The notes beneath the pieces were generated by a model that was not told where the DNA came from, ran no database searches, and was given only the letters and a program-made list of their open reading frames with translations. Shown here one piece after another: positions 30,791 to 55,722 of a stretch of 62,179 bases of DNA; position 1 is the stretch's first letter; every line of letters starts with the position of its first letter. The translations under genes were made by a program, and so were the position numbers. Source of the DNA: Lentisphaera araneosa HTCC2155 (lineage in GTDB: Bacteria > Verrucomicrobiota > Lentisphaeria > Lentisphaerales > Lentisphaeraceae); assembly GCF_000170755.1 (NCBI RefSeq), contig NZ_ABCK01000028.1:1-62179 (forward strand). The letters are read 5' to 3'.

Positions 30791-32131
30791 ATGTCAGAAA
30801 TGGCTAAACAAATATTAGGACGAGATGAACGCTTTGTGGAAATACAAGCGTGGGCGTCACCTTCTGTCTGGACGGATCAGATGCTGAAAACTCTTCATAG
30901 AGGAGTTGAAAGAGGTAAATGGTACAGCTTATCCGATAAGTTGATGCGTAAGAATAATATCATGGAAGCTTGGGAAAAAGTCTGCTCAAATAAGGGCTCA
31001 CATGGAGTGGATATGATATCAACTAAACGCTACGAGTCAGAGTTAGAACATAATAACGCTAAGCTTCTCGAAGAACTGCAAGATGGAAGGTATGATCCCA
31101 GTGCAGTGCGCCGAGTGGAAATCCCAAAAGGTGATGGTCGAAAGACCAGACCTTTGGGAATACCCACAGTGCGTGATCGAGTAGTTCAAACAGCTCTGAA
31201 ACATGTGATAGAGCCGATATTTGATATCGACTTCTCGCCCTACAGTTTTGGATTTCGTCCAAAGCTGGGTTGCAAGGATGCACTTAGACGAGTGAATGAA
31301 TTGTTAAAGCAGGGCTATCTCTATGTTATGGATGCCGACATCCAAAGCTACTTCGATACTATACCACATGAGAAACTCATGAGTCGAGTCAAGGAAAAGA
31401 TCATTGATGGTAAAATTCTTGGCTTGATCGAACAATTCCTCAAAGCCAATATCTTTGATGGTCTCAAGAATTGGGAACCTGAAGAAGGTACACCGCAGGG
31501 AGGAATTATCAGTCCTCTGTTAGCAAATATCTATCTTGATCCCTTTGATCACAAGATGACCGAGGCTGGATTTGAGATAGTGCGCTATGCAGACGATTTC
31601 CTGATCATGTGTAAAAGTAAAGAATCGGCCAAAAGGGCATTGCGCAAAACGCGAAGGTGGATGAAAGCCAATGGGCTAAAACTTCATCCAGAAAAGACGC
31701 GAATTGCCGACATGACAGAGAAGTGCGAGTACTTCGAGTTTCTCGGATACCATTTCGAGAGAACGCGAAATACCCATAGTATTAAACGTTGGCCAAGGAA
31801 GCAGAGCCTGAAGAAATGCAAAGATGCCATACGCAAGAAAACGAGGAGAAGCAATAAGGACTCAATAGAGGACATAATTGCTTACCTTCGGCCAAATCTT
31901 GTCGGATGGTATCAATACTTCAAGCACTCCACTGTGTATGCAATGCGAGGTATAGATGAATTTACACGCAGAAGACTGCGTAGTATTCTGGCTAAGCATC
32001 ATCGCAAGAAAGGTTCTCATCGCATGATTGATACTCGTAAATACAATAAAGCCTACTTTACAGATCTAGGCTTCTTTTCACTGGAGGAAGCCTGGAAACT
32101 GGAATTTCAGTCTCTTCGGAGTAAGCACTGA
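30791..32131 (+). CDS. group II intron-encoded reverse transcriptase/maturase
   Basis: 446 residues. Reverse-transcriptase blocks run from KGSHGVDMIS and IPKGDGRKTRPLGIPTVRDRVVQ through DADIQSYFDTIPH (first catalytic Asp), GTPQGGIISPLLANIYL and IVRYADDFLIM (the YADD catalytic pair). The maturase (GIIM) domain follows with LVGWYQYFKHS. No HNH endonuclease domain is present, as in the shorter intron classes that rely on replication forks or single-stranded targets. It helps the intron RNA fold, splice and reverse-transcribe into new sites. The frame is intact. Confidence 0.95.
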   Translation: MSEMAKQILGRDERFVEIQAWASPSVWTDQMLKTLHRGVERGKWYSLSDKLMRKNNIMEAWEKVCSNKGSHGVDMISTKRYESELEHNNAKLLEELQDGRYDPSAVRRVEIPKGDGRKTRPLGIPTVRDRVVQTALKHVIEPIFDIDFSPYSFGFRPKLGCKDALRRVNELLKQGYLYVMDADIQSYFDTIPHEKLMSRVKEKIIDGKILGLIEQFLKANIFDGLKNWEPEEGTPQGGIISPLLANIYLDPFDHKMTEAGFEIVRYADDFLIMCKSKESAKRALRKTRRWMKANGLKLHPEKTRIADMTEKCEYFEFLGYHFERTRNTHSIKRWPRKQSLKKCKDAIRKKTRRSNKDSIEDIIAYLRPNLVGWYQYFKHSTVYAMRGIDEFTRRRLRSILAKHHRKKGSHRMIDTRKYNKAYFTDLGFFSLEEAWKLEFQSLRSKH

Positions 32132-34728: not shown

Positions 34729-34813
34729 GTTGACTCCTAAGTATTTGCATTAATTAAAAATTTCCTCCTACAATGCCAAGCCTTGCTCAAAAAGCAATAG
34801 CTTTAAAAGGACT

Positions 34814-36274
34814 TTATTCTTCAGCTTTTCTATGAGTGCAATAGTCATTTTGCATCCATGAAAGGTAGTTTAAGTAGATGCTAAAAATAAATAAAATACT
34901 AGATAAAATTAACATGGAAAAAATGTTTTTATTGAAAAAGCCTATAATCATAATAAAGATTGAATTAAAGAATTCAGGCTTATAATCAAAGATAAGTGCT
35001 GCTACACAAATTATGACCAAGACGACAACAGCTCTCGAGATTAATTTTAGAATCTTTAGCTTATTTAAAAAGTTATTTATTTGTCTCGAGCTATTACTCA
35101 ATGCAATGAGCATAATGATGAGGCAGAGAGAAGAGAGTTGGAGAATTTTATTGTCTTCAACTTTTAGACTAAGACTTTTTGAGGGTTGATAGTTATCAAG
35201 ATTTTGAATGAATTTTTCACCGTAGAGTGTTTCGCGGATCTGATTTAAATCTGTGATAGTTTTCAATGTTGTAATGCCTGTACTATTATCATATCGAACG
35301 TTTTTTAGTGTAGATTCAATGTCGCTTAAGGGGTAAGCATCCTCGAAAATTCGATTTGAATAACGAGGAGAGTTAGAATTAAATTCAATCGGTTCAACTT
35401 GTGAAAAGAAATAAAGAAAGGTGCATAAAAACGGAAGCGTATAACAGGCTGTTGTGTGTAAAAAATCTATTTTACGCCCATAAATTTTGTAGATTATTGA
35501 GTAATTATTATTACCTGAAGATGCTTGGCCCATAAAAATAATGTAAACCCAAAATAAATTACTAGAAAAGAAGTTCGACCCCATAATCCACCCGGCTAAT
35601 AGAGAGAATAAAAGCGTTAATCCCTTGTAAGATTTTAGGGTAGATTCTATCCAAAATTTCATCTTTGGCGAGATCATTTTAGGGAGTTTAAAGTTAACTA
35701 GAAAAGCAATGAGGAAACGTGGCCAAGTGAATGCAAACTTGGATTGGTAGAATTTTTTTCCTGTAATGTAAAGTGCTGTATAGGTCAACAGACTGAAAAG
35801 GTAGCCTACAGGATTATGGGCTCCATAAATTGCAAATCCAGCAGCGAAAAGAAAGAGGACTAGTACGAAAGATGATAGGGCTCCTTCTCGCATATTGGTA
35901 AAGGCACTCATATAGAAAAAACCAGCGAGTACGAGAAATATACTAAGACTAACTTGGGGATAAACGGGGAAGAAGGGAAGGCCACAAAACAGCCAAAAAG
36001 CGAGTTTTTTTAAATTATATATTAAAACCTGGTTATATATTTCAATACTTGGGAGAGGAATTTTATTAATCAATAGAATGAATTCTTGCTCTTCTTCTGA
36101 TAGAATCGTTTTAAATAAATAGGCACCATTAATGATCAATAACACAGAAAGAGTAGACGAAAAGTCTTTTAGAAAAGGAGCGGCAAAGGCATTGATTAGA
36201 AATAGAGCACCTGCGATTTTATAGTTATATGTACGGTTGTGCTGAAATAAAAACTGGGAAAGCTTTTGGTTCAT
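34814..36274 (-). CDS. multi-pass membrane subunit of a YtrB-associated ABC transporter
   Basis: 486 residues with about ten to eleven hydrophobic helices and no enzymatic motif. An extracytoplasmic loop of about 75 residues (about 295-370, after LYFFSQVEPIEFNSN) separates the last helices. Its start overlaps the ATPase stop by 4 nt, so it is the permease-like part of the same transporter. Cargo is unknown; related YtrABC-type systems respond to cell-wall-active compounds in Gram-positives. Base composition is more AT-rich than in the efp-epmA neighbours. Confidence 0.75.
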   Translation of the reverse strand: MNQKLSQFLFQHNRTYNYKIAGALFLINAFAAPFLKDFSSTLSVLLIINGAYLFKTILSEEEQEFILLINKIPLPSIEIYNQVLIYNLKKLAFWLFCGLPFFPVYPQVSLSIFLVLAGFFYMSAFTNMREGALSSFVLVLFLFAAGFAIYGAHNPVGYLFSLLTYTALYITGKKFYQSKFAFTWPRFLIAFLVNFKLPKMISPKMKFWIESTLKSYKGLTLLFSLLAGWIMGSNFFSSNLFWVYIIFMGQASSGNNNYSIIYKIYGRKIDFLHTTACYTLPFLCTFLYFFSQVEPIEFNSNSPRYSNRIFEDAYPLSDIESTLKNVRYDNSTGITTLKTITDLNQIRETLYGEKFIQNLDNYQPSKSLSLKVEDNKILQLSSLCLIIMLIALSNSSRQINNFLNKLKILKLISRAVVVLVIICVAALIFDYKPEFFNSIFIMIIGFFNKNIFSMLILSSILFIFSIYLNYLSWMQNDYCTHRKAEE

Positions 36275-37134
36275 ACATCGCCTCCGCTACAGGCAATGAA
36301 GAGCTCTTCTAAACTGGGGCTTCGCAAGTACTTAATATTCAAGCTATGTTCTGTCGCAAATTGTTCAGCATCGTGTTGAGAGCCTTTAAAAATAAATTCA
36401 AAATTTCCGCTTTTGGAAGAAGAGGACATGATTAGAGAGGATTCAAGTTCTGTGTAATCACATGAAATGAAAGTATGAGAGTTTAATAGATCAAAAATAG
36501 TGCCGAAAAGAGCCACATTATGATCTGTTAAAACGATCAAACTGTCGGCTAGTTTCTCAACATCATCTAGTATATGGCTTGCAAAGATTATACAAGATTC
36601 ATTTTCCATAGCTAAATCATTTAGGCACTCATACATTTTTTTTCTGACGATTACATCTAAACCAGATGCGGGTTCATCTAAAATGAGAACTTTAGGTTTA
36701 TGGCAAACAGCTAATACGAGTCCAGCCATTTGGCGTTGACCTTTAGACATGGCACCAATACCGATACGTTTGTCTAAACGAAACTCAGAGATGAGCTTTT
36801 TCTCTAAATTTTTATCCCATTTAGAGTGCAATTGAGAATAAAGTTTGAGTAAATCACCAAAGCTCATCAGAACGGGCCATCTATCATCGTCCGATAAATA
36901 TCCAGTATTCTTTTTCAACCAAACTTCATCTTTAACGGGGTCTTTACCTAAAATTGAAACAATACCACTATCGGGTAAAGATGTACCTGTAATCGTTTTG
37001 ATTAGTGTCGTTTTACCTACGCCATTTCGGCCAAGTAAACCGTATACTCCTGGTTGAGTAATGCTTAAATTTAGATTTTTTAAAACTGGATAATCATAAG
37101 TTTTATTAATTCCCATGAGTTGAATAAAAGACAT
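36271..37134 (-). CDS. ABC transporter ATP-binding protein, YtrB-like
   Basis: 287 residues. Walker A GRNGVGKTT (about 35-43), signature MSKGQRQ, Walker B VLILDEPASGLD and the H-loop FASHILDD are intact, so it should hydrolyse ATP. The C-terminal 80 residues form the regulatory extension usual in this subfamily. It is encoded between a GntR regulator (1-nt overlap) and its membrane partner (4-nt overlap), a compact three-gene operon. Confidence 0.92.
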   Translation of the reverse strand: MSFIQLMGINKTYDYPVLKNLNLSITQPGVYGLLGRNGVGKTTLIKTITGTSLPDSGIVSILGKDPVKDEVWLKKNTGYLSDDDRWPVLMSFGDLLKLYSQLHSKWDKNLEKKLISEFRLDKRIGIGAMSKGQRQMAGLVLAVCHKPKVLILDEPASGLDVIVRKKMYECLNDLAMENESCIIFASHILDDVEKLADSLIVLTDHNVALFGTIFDLLNSHTFISCDYTELESSLIMSSSSKSGNFEFIFKGSQHDAEQFATEHSLNIKYLRSPSLEELFIACSGGDV

Positions 37135-37493
37135 TAATTTTCCTCCTCAATGTTTCTTAAAATTTCAGTCAGATCATTAACGTTCAATCCAACTTGTTTC
37201 GCTAGCTCAACTAGGTCACTACATTTTTGGTGAATTACTTCTTGGCGTCTTGATTGATTAGACGAAATGAACGCTCCTTTCCCTTGCTCAATATATACTA
37301 ATCCTCTCTTTTCTAATTCAGAGTAAGCCTGTTTTACAGTGAGGTAATTGACACACAAATCTTTTGAGACTTGCCTCAGTGAAGGCAGCTTATCCCCAAA
37401 TTTGTATTGCCCAAGTATAATATGCTGCTCAAGTTGCTCAGTAATTTGAGCATACAAAGGAGTATTTGAGCCAGTGTTTATAGATAAGTTCAT
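37134..37493 (-). CDS. YtrA-type GntR family regulator
   Basis: 119 residues: a GntR winged helix-turn-helix (PLYAQITEQLEQHIILGQYK...LPSLRQVSKDLCVNYLTVKQAYSELEKRGLVYIEQGKGAFIS) and a short dimerisation tail only, as in the YtrA subfamily, which lacks a large ligand domain. It probably represses its own operon. The start ATG 37493 has no Shine-Dalgarno because a promoter and palindromic operator end just 2-3 nt before it, so the message is probably leaderless. Confidence 0.92.
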   Translation of the reverse strand: MNLSINTGSNTPLYAQITEQLEQHIILGQYKFGDKLPSLRQVSKDLCVNYLTVKQAYSELEKRGLVYIEQGKGAFISSNQSRRQEVIHQKCSDLVELAKQVGLNVNDLTEILRNIEEEN

Positions 37494-37495
37494 AT

Positions 37496-37526
37496 ACTGT
37501 TATATAACACTATAACAGTAAGTCAA
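37496..37526 (-). promoter_or_regulatory. operator and promoter of the YtrA-like operon
   Basis: On the minus strand, TTGACT (37526-37521), a 16-bp spacer and TATAAC (37504-37499) form a good sigma-70 promoter whose start should fall at or next to the ATG at 37493. A perfect 9-bp inverted repeat, ACTGTTATA and TATAACAGT with a 6-nt spacer, covers 37519-37496 and thus the spacer and -10 box, ideal for repression by the GntR product. Confidence 0.7.
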
Positions 37527-37577
37527 ATATTTAGTTGTACTATTTTTTCTCAATGATTAAAAATAAATGAGATTTAT

Positions 37578-38816
37578 TTAAAGTGTATCAAGTAAAATTT
37601 GAGCTCTTTCGGCAGTTTTGGTATTGGGGCAGAGCTCTAAAATCTTTTTTAAGCCAGCCGCAATTTTTTCTTTGGAAGAGCCTTTACGTTTCATGGCAGC
37701 TTTAATTTTTTCTAGGTAAGCATCCGCTTTAAATTCTTTAAGGATGGCGGGGTTTTGTTTATACTTTTCTACAATTTTGAGTTCTTCACTGGCCATTTCT
37801 TTTCCGTAAGTCGAAATGAGTTTTTGAATGTGTTTATAGGCTTGGACGTAATATTTTTCTTGATCAAAGGAGGAGATTGCATCTTGGATTTCAGTGTAGG
37901 GAGCTTGGATTTTCTCAAACTCTTCACTTGCTAGTTCATGACCACCTGCAGCGGCAACTTGAAGATTTTTAAAGGCTTCGGAGAACTGTTTTTTCTTAAT
38001 AGCGCTCATGCCTTTGGTGTATAGAGTCTCTAACTTCGCGACTCGGGGCGTGTCAATATAAGCGAGCGCTTTATCTAAAACCTCAGTCGGCAAAGTGCGG
38101 TGCTTATGATTTTTTTGGACGTGAATTTTAGTATTGAGAATTTTTGCATCAGTGTATTTTTTATGAACTCTTTGTGTATCTTCTAAATTAAAATCTCCAT
38201 CACCAGTTAAAAAGTAAAAATAATTTTCTTGCATTTTACTTATCTGACTTTTTTCGTTGTTATGCATGAAATTGCAACCACACTGATAAATAGCGCCTTT
38301 ATAAATTTCCGGGAAAAGAGCTGCAGCTATACTCGAAACACGACCACCGCCAGACATGCCACTAACAAAAATACGGTCAGCATCGATATTATAAATTTCT
38401 TTGAGTTTATCAATGCCCCACAGAGCCATGGATATACGAGCATAGGTGTAGGTATCATTTCCAGAATTTTTTGCTGTAATTAAAATTAAATTATATTTAC
38501 TGAGCAAATTAATAAAGGCTTTTCCAGATCCAGGAGTGATATAAGTTATGATGCCAGTGGGGATGTTTGGATCGTATGATTCGGGAACGACTATATCCCA
38601 TGTAACTTCATGAAAGGTCTTATCTTTAATTGTCATTATAGGGATGCGTTCACCATCAGGGATCTTATCTTCGCTTCCCGGCCAACGTTGATGAACTCCC
38701 TCATAATACGGCCTTGGGATTGCCTTATCAGTAATAGAATATTTACCTTTACGGTGTTGTTCTCCATAACTGGCTAAAGTAAGTAATAAAGTAAGCGTTG
38801 TGTAAATAAATTTCAT
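37578..38816 (-). CDS. secreted alpha/beta-hydrolase-like protein with C-terminal helical repeats
   Basis: 412 residues with a signal peptide (FIYTTLTLLLTLASYG). The middle part has the nucleophile elbow GMSGGGR (S155) and the oxyanion-side stretch IITYITPGSGKA, as in polyhydroxybutyrate-depolymerase/feruloyl-esterase-like hydrolases; D/H partners may be GDGDFN and KNHKHRTLP. From about 250 on, repeated amphipathic helices (AIKKKQFSEAFKNLQVAAAGG, ILELCPNTKTAERAQILL) look like TPR/Sel1-type repeats. The substrate is unknown; an ester in the periplasm is likely. Confidence 0.7.
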   Translation of the reverse strand: MKFIYTTLTLLLTLASYGEQHRKGKYSITDKAIPRPYYEGVHQRWPGSEDKIPDGERIPIMTIKDKTFHEVTWDIVVPESYDPNIPTGIITYITPGSGKAFINLLSKYNLILITAKNSGNDTYTYARISMALWGIDKLKEIYNIDADRIFVSGMSGGGRVSSIAAALFPEIYKGAIYQCGCNFMHNNEKSQISKMQENYFYFLTGDGDFNLEDTQRVHKKYTDAKILNTKIHVQKNHKHRTLPTEVLDKALAYIDTPRVAKLETLYTKGMSAIKKKQFSEAFKNLQVAAAGGHELASEEFEKIQAPYTEIQDAISSFDQEKYYVQAYKHIQKLISTYGKEMASEELKIVEKYKQNPAILKEFKADAYLEKIKAAMKRKGSSKEKIAAGLKKILELCPNTKTAERAQILLDTL

Positions 38817-55069: not shown

Positions 55070-55098
55070 ATGACTGAAGTAGAGGAGAATATTGACAA

Positions 55099-55722
55099 GT
55101 GTTTTGCCAAAGCATAGATTCACCTATGAATGAAAATAACGAAACATATGGGACTCGCGTCACCCTGCTTCAGCGCATCATAAATGAAAAAGATGAGAAG
55201 AGCTGGGAGGACTTTGTGCAGTACTATCAGGGTTTTATCTATCTTATCTGTAGAAAAATGGATATGTCTCATCATGAAGCTGACGAGGTGGTTCAGCAAG
55301 TGCTGATTAAACTCTGGAACCATTTTCCCAATTTCGAATATGATGAGTCACGCCGCTTTCGGAGTTGGCTTTGTCGAGTCATTCAAAATACGGGGCGCGA
55401 TTTTTATCGAAAACTCAATAGTCAGAGTCGCCTCAAGGGCAAAGTTAAAGAGCAATACCTAGAAGATCAGAGCTTACCAGAAGTCGAAAAACTTGCCGAG
55501 AGTGAGTGGAATGATTATTTGGCTTCTTTGGCCTTAGAAAATATTAAGCCCCATTTCTCTGATCGTTTAATCGAGATTTTCTTACGTTTGGCAGAGGGTG
55601 AAAACCCTCAAGATTTAGAAGCCGAATACGAACTCAAATCCAAAGTTATTTACGTGTATCGCAAACGCATTCGCGATCGCTTAAAAGATGAGATACGTCG
55701 CCTAAAAGCTGAGTTAGCTTAA
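55099..55722 (+). CDS. ECF-type RNA polymerase sigma factor
   Basis: Up to 207 residues. Region 2 (WEDFVQYYQGFIYLICRKMDMSHHEADEVVQQV...FRSWLCRVIQNTGRDFYRK) and a degenerate region 4 (LIEIFLRLAEGENPQDLEAEYELKSKVIYVYRKRIRDRL) are seen. It belongs to the ECF group that in Planctomycetota and Verrucomicrobiota pairs with Ser/Thr kinases, and the kinase follows immediately (stop TAA, next ATG adjacent). The start is uncertain: GTG 55099 lies 11 nt after AGGAG, while ATG 55126 has no RBS. No anti-sigma gene is seen, so the kinase probably controls it. Confidence 0.88.
   Translation: MFCQSIDSPMNENNETYGTRVTLLQRIINEKDEKSWEDFVQYYQGFIYLICRKMDMSHHEADEVVQQVLIKLWNHFPNFEYDESRRFRSWLCRVIQNTGRDFYRKLNSQSRLKGKVKEQYLEDQSLPEVEKLAESEWNDYLASLALENIKPHFSDRLIEIFLRLAEGENPQDLEAEYELKSKVIYVYRKRIRDRLKDEIRRLKAELA

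Follow-up and report, generated by a model that had tools for sequence, protein, structure and literature searches.

What does it mean for the expression of an operon when the promoter of its repressor gene ends almost on the start codon, with an inverted repeat laid over it? This question is raised by gntR, the first of three minus-strand genes, followed by an ABC ATPase gene and a putative permease gene. They lie in the window, the whole stretch of DNA that was analysed (contig C28 of genome G000, 62179 bases), and the genome comprises 6,023,180 bases in 81 contigs. An earlier note had described the locus as an apparently leaderless, self-repressed operon of the YtrA type. The features discussed below are collected in Table 1.

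Table 1. Positions of the promoter elements, operator, and genes considered in this study (window coordinates unless a locus or contig is named).
Feature	Position	Strand	Remarks
-35 hexamer TTGACT	37521..37526	-	direct reading
-10 hexamer TATAAC	37499..37504	-	direct reading; ends 5 nt before ATG
Operator (predicted)	37495..37520	both	perfect 10-bp inverted repeat, 6-nt centre, 26 bp
Competing extended -10 TGTTATAGT	37509..37517	-	direct reading; inside operator
gntR	37134..37493	-	119 aa, YtrA-type GntR repressor (predicted), no Shine-Dalgarno (SD) sequence
ABC ATPase gene	36271..37134	-	287 aa, TAATG overlap with gntR, strong SD GAGGAGG
Putative permease gene	34814..36274	-	486 aa, hydrophobic segments, ATGA overlap, strong SD
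sigma1 promoter and gene	55092-55722	+	TTGACA-17-TAGATT-5-ATG, no SD
AraC1 gene	L073:9864-10541 (C5)		TTGACT-16-TAGATT/TAAGTT/TATTGT-5-ATG in three species
AraC2 gene	L234:733-1503 (C26; C26:67225)		leaderless geometry in three species

The operon encodes a YtrA-type regulator, an ABC ATPase, and a putative membrane partner

The GntR protein contains one GntR winged helix at its N-terminus (Pfam PF00392, 1.3e-16, 60.4 bits with a cut-off of 27), and 43 aa remain after the domain match, where the YtrA subfamily has a short two-helix domain of about 50 aa. Its top NCBIfam model is PmtR (6e-23, under the cut-off); with 81.2 bits, the protein falls short of the curated cut-off of 200 for the PmtR equivalog NF047563. 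The best PDB match is Lin1836 (6.1e-17), and Lmo0741 is also among the best solved relatives; both are short proteins, presumably from Listeria to judge from the gene names. Two C-terminal helices appear in the structure model of the GntR protein, which is of low confidence (pLDDT 52); this model and that of the permease (pLDDT 41) were set aside as too weak. The ATPase matches Pfam ABC_tran (2.3e-23), and its best NCBIfam model is PmtA (3.3e-40), again under the cut-off. The putative permease shows 10 hydropathy peaks, partly overlapping, and matches no Pfam or NCBIfam family, that of the known YtrBCDEF/Pmt-type permeases included.

The overlapping frames of the three genes suggest a single operon, and the ABC_tran gene adjoins gntR with overlapping frames, the arrangement of a YtrA-type ABC transporter operon. 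The locus is thus composed of a YtrA-type repressor, an ABC ATPase, and a putative membrane partner. Where the earlier note had listed repressor, operator, ATPase, and permease, the ATPase stands, and the permease finds no match to a family.

Promoter, predicted operator, and start codon of gntR lie within about 36 bp

Direct reading of the minus strand bears out the promoter TTGACT-16-TATAAC that had been proposed just ahead of gntR. The 16-nt spacer occupies 37520-37505, and the 5 nt AGTAT (37498-37494) separate the -10 from the ATG (37493-37491). The pair scores 10/12, the top among the pairs scored within 160 nt upstream of gntR. The start codon is secure because M1 is the sole Met of the 119-aa protein, an in-frame TAA lies two codons upstream, within the -10, and the N-terminus is in register with four homologues. 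The lack of an SD sequence is likewise confirmed: the anti-SD duplex energy is -1.9 at gntR, compared with -12.2 at the ATPase gene, -10.7 at the permease gene, and -10.2 at the gene upstream of gntR. An energy of -4 or better is found at the first ATG in 55% of 805 sampled genes, which are those preceded by 50 nt or more of free sequence.

The gntR -10 ends in C where the consensus has T, and C is a poor base at this position; a simple consensus scan, in which the final T is required, misses the promoter. With the usual 6-nt spacing, +1 would fall on the T of the ATG rather than on the A (predicted leader, -1). In the available text of PMC3160421, leaderless genes are recognised by a -10-like box, with the consensus TANNNT, about 12 bp before the start; gntR has TATAAC at -11, ending in C, and no SD (-1.9).

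The inverted repeat, TACTGTTATA-6 nt-TATAACAGTA, has the core ACTGT...ACAGT, with GT-N14-AC and all 9/9 outer pairs. It spans the entire spacer and the -10 and extends over 4 of the 5 nt between the -10 and the ATG, ending 1 nt short of the latter; the predicted operator, core promoter, and translation start together take up about 36 bp. A perfect repeat over the spacer and the -10 had been noted before; its extent is now corrected from 9-bp arms and 24 bp to 10-bp arms and 26 bp. This is a long palindrome with distal GT/AC, and YtrA operators are typically 24 bp with conserved bases far from the centre, according to the available parts of PMC6746942 and PMC4494728.

We searched for perfect repeats with arms of at least 10 and a spacer of at most 8 in the region -100 to +5. 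They are found in 16 of the 805 intergenic upstream regions sampled, which include those of the window's genes, and in 122 of the 20000 copies of the gntR upstream region made by resampling, so that, taken alone, the palindrome would arise by chance in about 1-2% of cases. The earlier note had proposed a search for the same palindrome before other genes; no second copy is found in the genome within 2 mismatches. Copies with 3 mismatches occur at two places, against 7 per strand in a backward-read control, and other operator targets were therefore dropped. With 3-mismatch sites only, no regulon beyond the gntR operon is indicated, which fits the mostly single-operon YtrA regulons described in the accessible part of PMC4494728.

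The operator type accompanies short GntR genes across the phylum

We compared the loci of short, YtrA-type homologues in the phylum, a homologue being defined by a short frame plus homology to the window protein and its start codon by the script's pick nearest the expected place. Of 54 loci offered, 46 were analysed; two were too long, one had a short upstream sequence, and five gave no tblastn hit. The set was drawn from the matches listed, five further short matches listed stay outside it, and one relative with a 207-aa frame from a scan of genome contigs was dropped. The operator rule comprised a 24/25-bp palindrome with at least 7/9 outer pairs and GT-N14/15-AC within the upstream 110 nt.

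The results show that this palindrome lies upstream of 33 of the 46 loci, own locus included. In the controls, it is found 13 times among 805 upstream regions taken from the own genome and 31 times among 2300 resampled sequences. Six of the 46 loci are near-copies from a single genus, and without them the operator is found in 28 of 40. One homologue operator is nearly identical to that of gntR (L163, ACTGTATTAGTGTTGTAATACAGT; own, ACTGTTATAGTGTTATATAACAGT). The palindrome type thus supports the proposal that the regulator would repress its own operon in the manner of YtrA. It also bears on the idea that the palindrome is bound by another regulator, or is a mere RNA hairpin or terminator. Perfect palindromes as long as this one do occur at other genes of the genome, as the above count of 16 in 805 indicates, but the GT-N14/15-AC pattern keeps company with short GntR genes across the phylum at a rate far above that of the control regions, it fits the roughly 24-bp YtrA operator (PMC6746942, as far as its text is available), and the hairpin is not followed by a U-run. 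We consider this idea very improbable.

In every one of the 21 loci (of the 33) with a promoter scoring 9/12 or better, the operator overlaps the core promoter. Random placement gives a mean overlap of 12.7 of 21, and all 21 overlap in 1 of 20000 trials. The position of the -10 within the homologue operators varies (left half, around the centre, or right half), which indicates that overlap is conserved rather than a fixed phase. The remaining 12 of the 33 operator-bearing loci have no promoter of at least 9/12, and 13 of the 46 loci fail the operator rule. Only 8 of the 46 show an ABC ATPase within the following 1 kb in a crude motif scan.

In most homologues, the operator lies farther from the ATG, and many have an SD. 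Three loci share the close spacing, with the operator 0-4 nt from the ATG and an SD energy above -1: L148 (2 nt), L167 (0 nt), and L168 (4 nt). The prediction is a leader of 7 nt in L148 and of 1 nt in L168; L167 has no promoter of at least 9/12. At L221 and L224, the best palindrome is at the ATG, yet the operator rule fails. L142 comes from the genus of L148 and matches it in operator and promoter; its ATG, however, is 40 nt away, and an SD is present. The contrast between L142 and L148 suggests that leaders are gained and lost.

Promoters 5-6 nt before the ATG recur at regulator genes of the genus

In the genome sample, TATAAT-like hexamers number 14-32 per position at -17 to -39 and 4-9 at -16 to -9. 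A genome-wide leaderless habit was rejected on account of this depletion at -9 to -16. An attempt to learn the promoter from TATAAT-like sites failed, the 320 sites having neither a clear -35 nor a clear TG signal around them.

The extended -10 TGTTATAGT in the left operator half offers a different promoter, which would need no -35 and would give an SD-less leader of about 9 nt under the same repression. Its TGn-TATAGT matches 5/6 including the final T, the TATAAT-like hexamers are more frequent over -17 to -39 (a range that takes in -20/-21) than over -9 to -16, and L148, with TATAAT 13 nt from the ATG, has a predicted leader of similar kind (7 nt) and no SD. This promoter leaves unexplained, however, why TTGACT stands at the right distance for TATAAC; its TG falls in the operator half-site whose GT the homologue operators share and may serve the repressor, and TG is not enriched at the 320 sampled TATAAT-like sites. 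We regard it as an unlikely alternative, though one with some weight, and it would alter the transcription start, not the regulatory logic. With a leader of about 9 nt possible and a permease of no named family, the phrase "fully predicted regulatory unit" used in the earlier note was too strong.

The pattern TTGAC-(16-18)-TANNNY, which includes the TTGACT-16-TATAAC promoter preferred here, occurs at 25 sites upstream of 821 sampled genes. Three sites lie exactly 5 nt from the ATG, none at 0-4 or 6-28, and 22 are spread over 29-127. The three gap-5 genes are all regulators, namely gntR, AraC1 (C5:49864), and sigma1 (window 55126-55722), the last a sigma-70 region-2 protein of the ECF type by our reading. 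The count is not blind, because two of the three genes are in the window and gntR prompted the search, and the sister species therefore serve as an independent test.

The sigma1 promoter is in the exact place in 3/3 species of the genus, and the three species agree at 32 of the final 37 upstream bases, compared with 7 of the preceding 38. The -35 and -10 of AraC1 also keep their exact place in three species; there the promoter stretch is conserved at 15/37 positions, compared with 14/38 before it, and the boxes alone stand out. The spacers of these two promoters were counted by hand. AraC2 has TTGACC/TTGATA/TTGATA-16-TACCTT/TATTTT/TACATT-5/5/6-ATG across the three species. By eye, a conserved block, TGTA... 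and TGTATAATC/TGTAAAATC, is seen just upstream of the AraC2 promoter in the three species (L246-L248), perhaps AraC2's own binding site. All nine -10 boxes of AraC1, AraC2, and sigma1 end in T, unlike the C of gntR. The retention of TTGAC-16/17-TANNNT-5-ATG before other regulator genes in three species lends comparative support, at the level of sequence, to the proposed leaderless start.

A whole-genome search with the strict pattern gave 32 matches against 20 for the reversed-pattern control in the own genome, and 29/24 and 24/28 in the sister species; these counts are not clearly above the control, so the class with leaderless geometry is small. Of the 32 own matches, 30 were examined (all but C17:304 and C26:1389). 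By their ORF and overlap columns, six of these were judged to be real gene starts. Regulators make up five of the six genes: two AraC, two sigma-like, and gntR; the sixth carries a prepilin methylation motif. The second sigma-like gene scores 21.7 bits, under the Pfam cut-off of 24, and its product shows 36% identity to the first sigma protein and 44-53% to other sigma relatives. No close orthologue of this gene is found in the sister species, and its four nearest relatives (about 50% identity, one an own-genome paralogue) have SD energies of -5.4 to -6.8 and, by eye, no such promoter. A looser promoter rule (9/12) gives 17 of 805 genes with leaderless geometry, which are of mixed functions, several with an SD.

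Two side observations were made. A TTGACA-type promoter lies 5-6 nt before the ATG of the gene with the prepilin methylation motif (L235:241-739, C34), which encodes 155 aa and has no SD, and one sigma protein has 68 matches in the own genome and 60 and 63 in the sister species.

A broader reading, which we put forward tentatively and with slightly more doubt than belief, is that the genus (probably Lentisphaera), in which most starts would otherwise be SD-led, has one small class of housekeeping promoters fixed 5-6 nt before the ATG, mainly for regulators (AraC, ECF-type sigma, YtrA). The leaderless start would act as a brake on regulator synthesis, and in some YtrA operons the operator would be fixed next to the start codon, a single short stretch thereby governing transcription, repression, and the ratio of repressor to transporter. 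If the bias toward regulators is real, leaderless initiation would be kept by selection in an SD-using bacterium, limiting regulator dosage, as has been argued for acuR.

The operon appears to be an acquired cassette with its own promoter

No match to the permease turned up in 386 further genomes of the phylum, themselves drawn from a larger group, and it is found in its own genome only. The two sister species have no close gntR orthologue, and because of the lack of an orthologue in the genus, the gntR promoter itself is not footprintable. In G002, both efp and the end of the gene that precedes gntR are found, separated by a 312-codon gene on the opposite strand; G001 has a 344-codon gene upstream of efp. 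The G+C content is 31-37% in the operon, 42-47% in the efp-side flank, and 37% in the upstream flank. The operon is species-specific and probably horizontally acquired, and the most plausible reading is a cassette, replaced or inserted, that carries its own promoter.

The stretch between efp and an esterase-like gene (window 34799-37586) differs between species. An ORF resembling a group II intron reverse transcriptase/maturase was recognised by eye at window 30791-32131 (plus strand), and a similar C-terminal fragment lies near efp in G002 (L257:3279-3572).

The surroundings also bear on whether gntR is expressed mainly from longer transcripts, by read-through of the upstream gene at 37578-38816 on the same strand or from a farther promoter, with the -35 and -10 at gntR accidental. 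No terminator-like site is found on the minus strand within 37400-37750, and a weak match, TTGAGA-16-AATATT, lies at 37553-37526. This match is within chance, however (one found, with a mean of 1.2 in shuffles), and the end of the upstream gene adjoins efp in one sister species that lacks the gntR operon. A longer RNA would, moreover, carry a 10-bp hairpin (-10.6 kcal/mol) ending 1 nt before the AUG, with no SD; hampered translation would make read-through RNA a poor start for GntR synthesis. Dependence on longer transcripts is thus improbable in our view.

A model for autorepression through a shared promoter, operator, and start codon

Taken as a whole, the locus is best explained by autorepression through coverage of the promoter, a leaderless or nearly leaderless repressor mRNA, and derepression that favours the transporter, an explanation in which we have reasonably good confidence. 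A single housekeeping promoter 5 nt before the repressor ATG would drive the operon, and the mRNA would most likely begin at the A of the AUG, leaderless or with a leader of a few nt. When no inducer is present, a YtrA-type dimer on 37495-37520 would cover the spacer and the -10 and exclude RNA polymerase, and its own gene and the transporter would stay silent until a ligand or the transported compound releases the repressor. The leaderless gntR would be weakly translated, and the ATPase and permease genes strongly, via their strong SDs; derepression may thus yield much transporter and little repressor. The locus offers a compact, testable case of a repressor gene with operator, promoter, and start in such a short stretch.

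Comparison with known systems

Literature searches, judged from the parts of the source texts available, returned no report of such a case for leaderless genes combined with Lentisphaer- and planctomycete-related terms. YtrA combined with leaderless returned only a FadR-type regulator and YtrA named in a reference title, and leaderless combined with Lentisphaer returned only a survey of anti-SD sequences.

The gntR operon shares a short GntR protein, a regulator-first ABC operon, and a long palindrome with the YtrA-subfamily ABC operons, as described for B. subtilis YtrA and S. aureus PmtR in the portions available of Suvorova et al. (2015; PMC4494728) and PMC5080381. The 36-bp footprint of PmtR overlaps the transcription start (PMC5080381), and YtrA-type operators over the transcription start are already known (PMC5080381, PMC6746942). 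pmtR has an SD (PMC5080381), whereas gntR has none and its predicted operator ends 1 nt before the ATG; the permease here, in contrast to those of the YtrA/Pmt ABC systems, is of no named family.

Three other operons resemble the gntR operon in architecture, as far as the excerpts of the respective reports go. In the ans operon of C. glutamicum (PMC9145765), the GntR-type regulator AnsR is encoded first, leaderless, and autorepressed, as proposed here for gntR, but it belongs to the FadR subfamily and its operator lies downstream of the transcription start (roadblock), whereas the predicted operator here is of the YtrA type and lies over the -10. The pen operon of R. jostii (PMC11998424) has a proposed leaderless transcript and a GntR-type palindrome in the -10, but the palindrome is only 6 bp and the operon serves xylose metabolism. 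The acuR-acuI-dddL operon of R. sphaeroides (PMC3017554) is also regulator-first, with the -10/-35 just upstream of the AUG, an inverted repeat with a 6-nt centre over the promoter, a repressor gene without SD, and better translated downstream genes. AcuR, however, is an acrylate-responsive TetR-family protein with a RACE-proven transcription start, whereas the GntR/YtrA-type system described here is known from its sequence. Leaderless autorepressed operons, including the GntR-type ansR, and 24-bp YtrA operators are thus each known from these sources, and the gntR operon would add a case.
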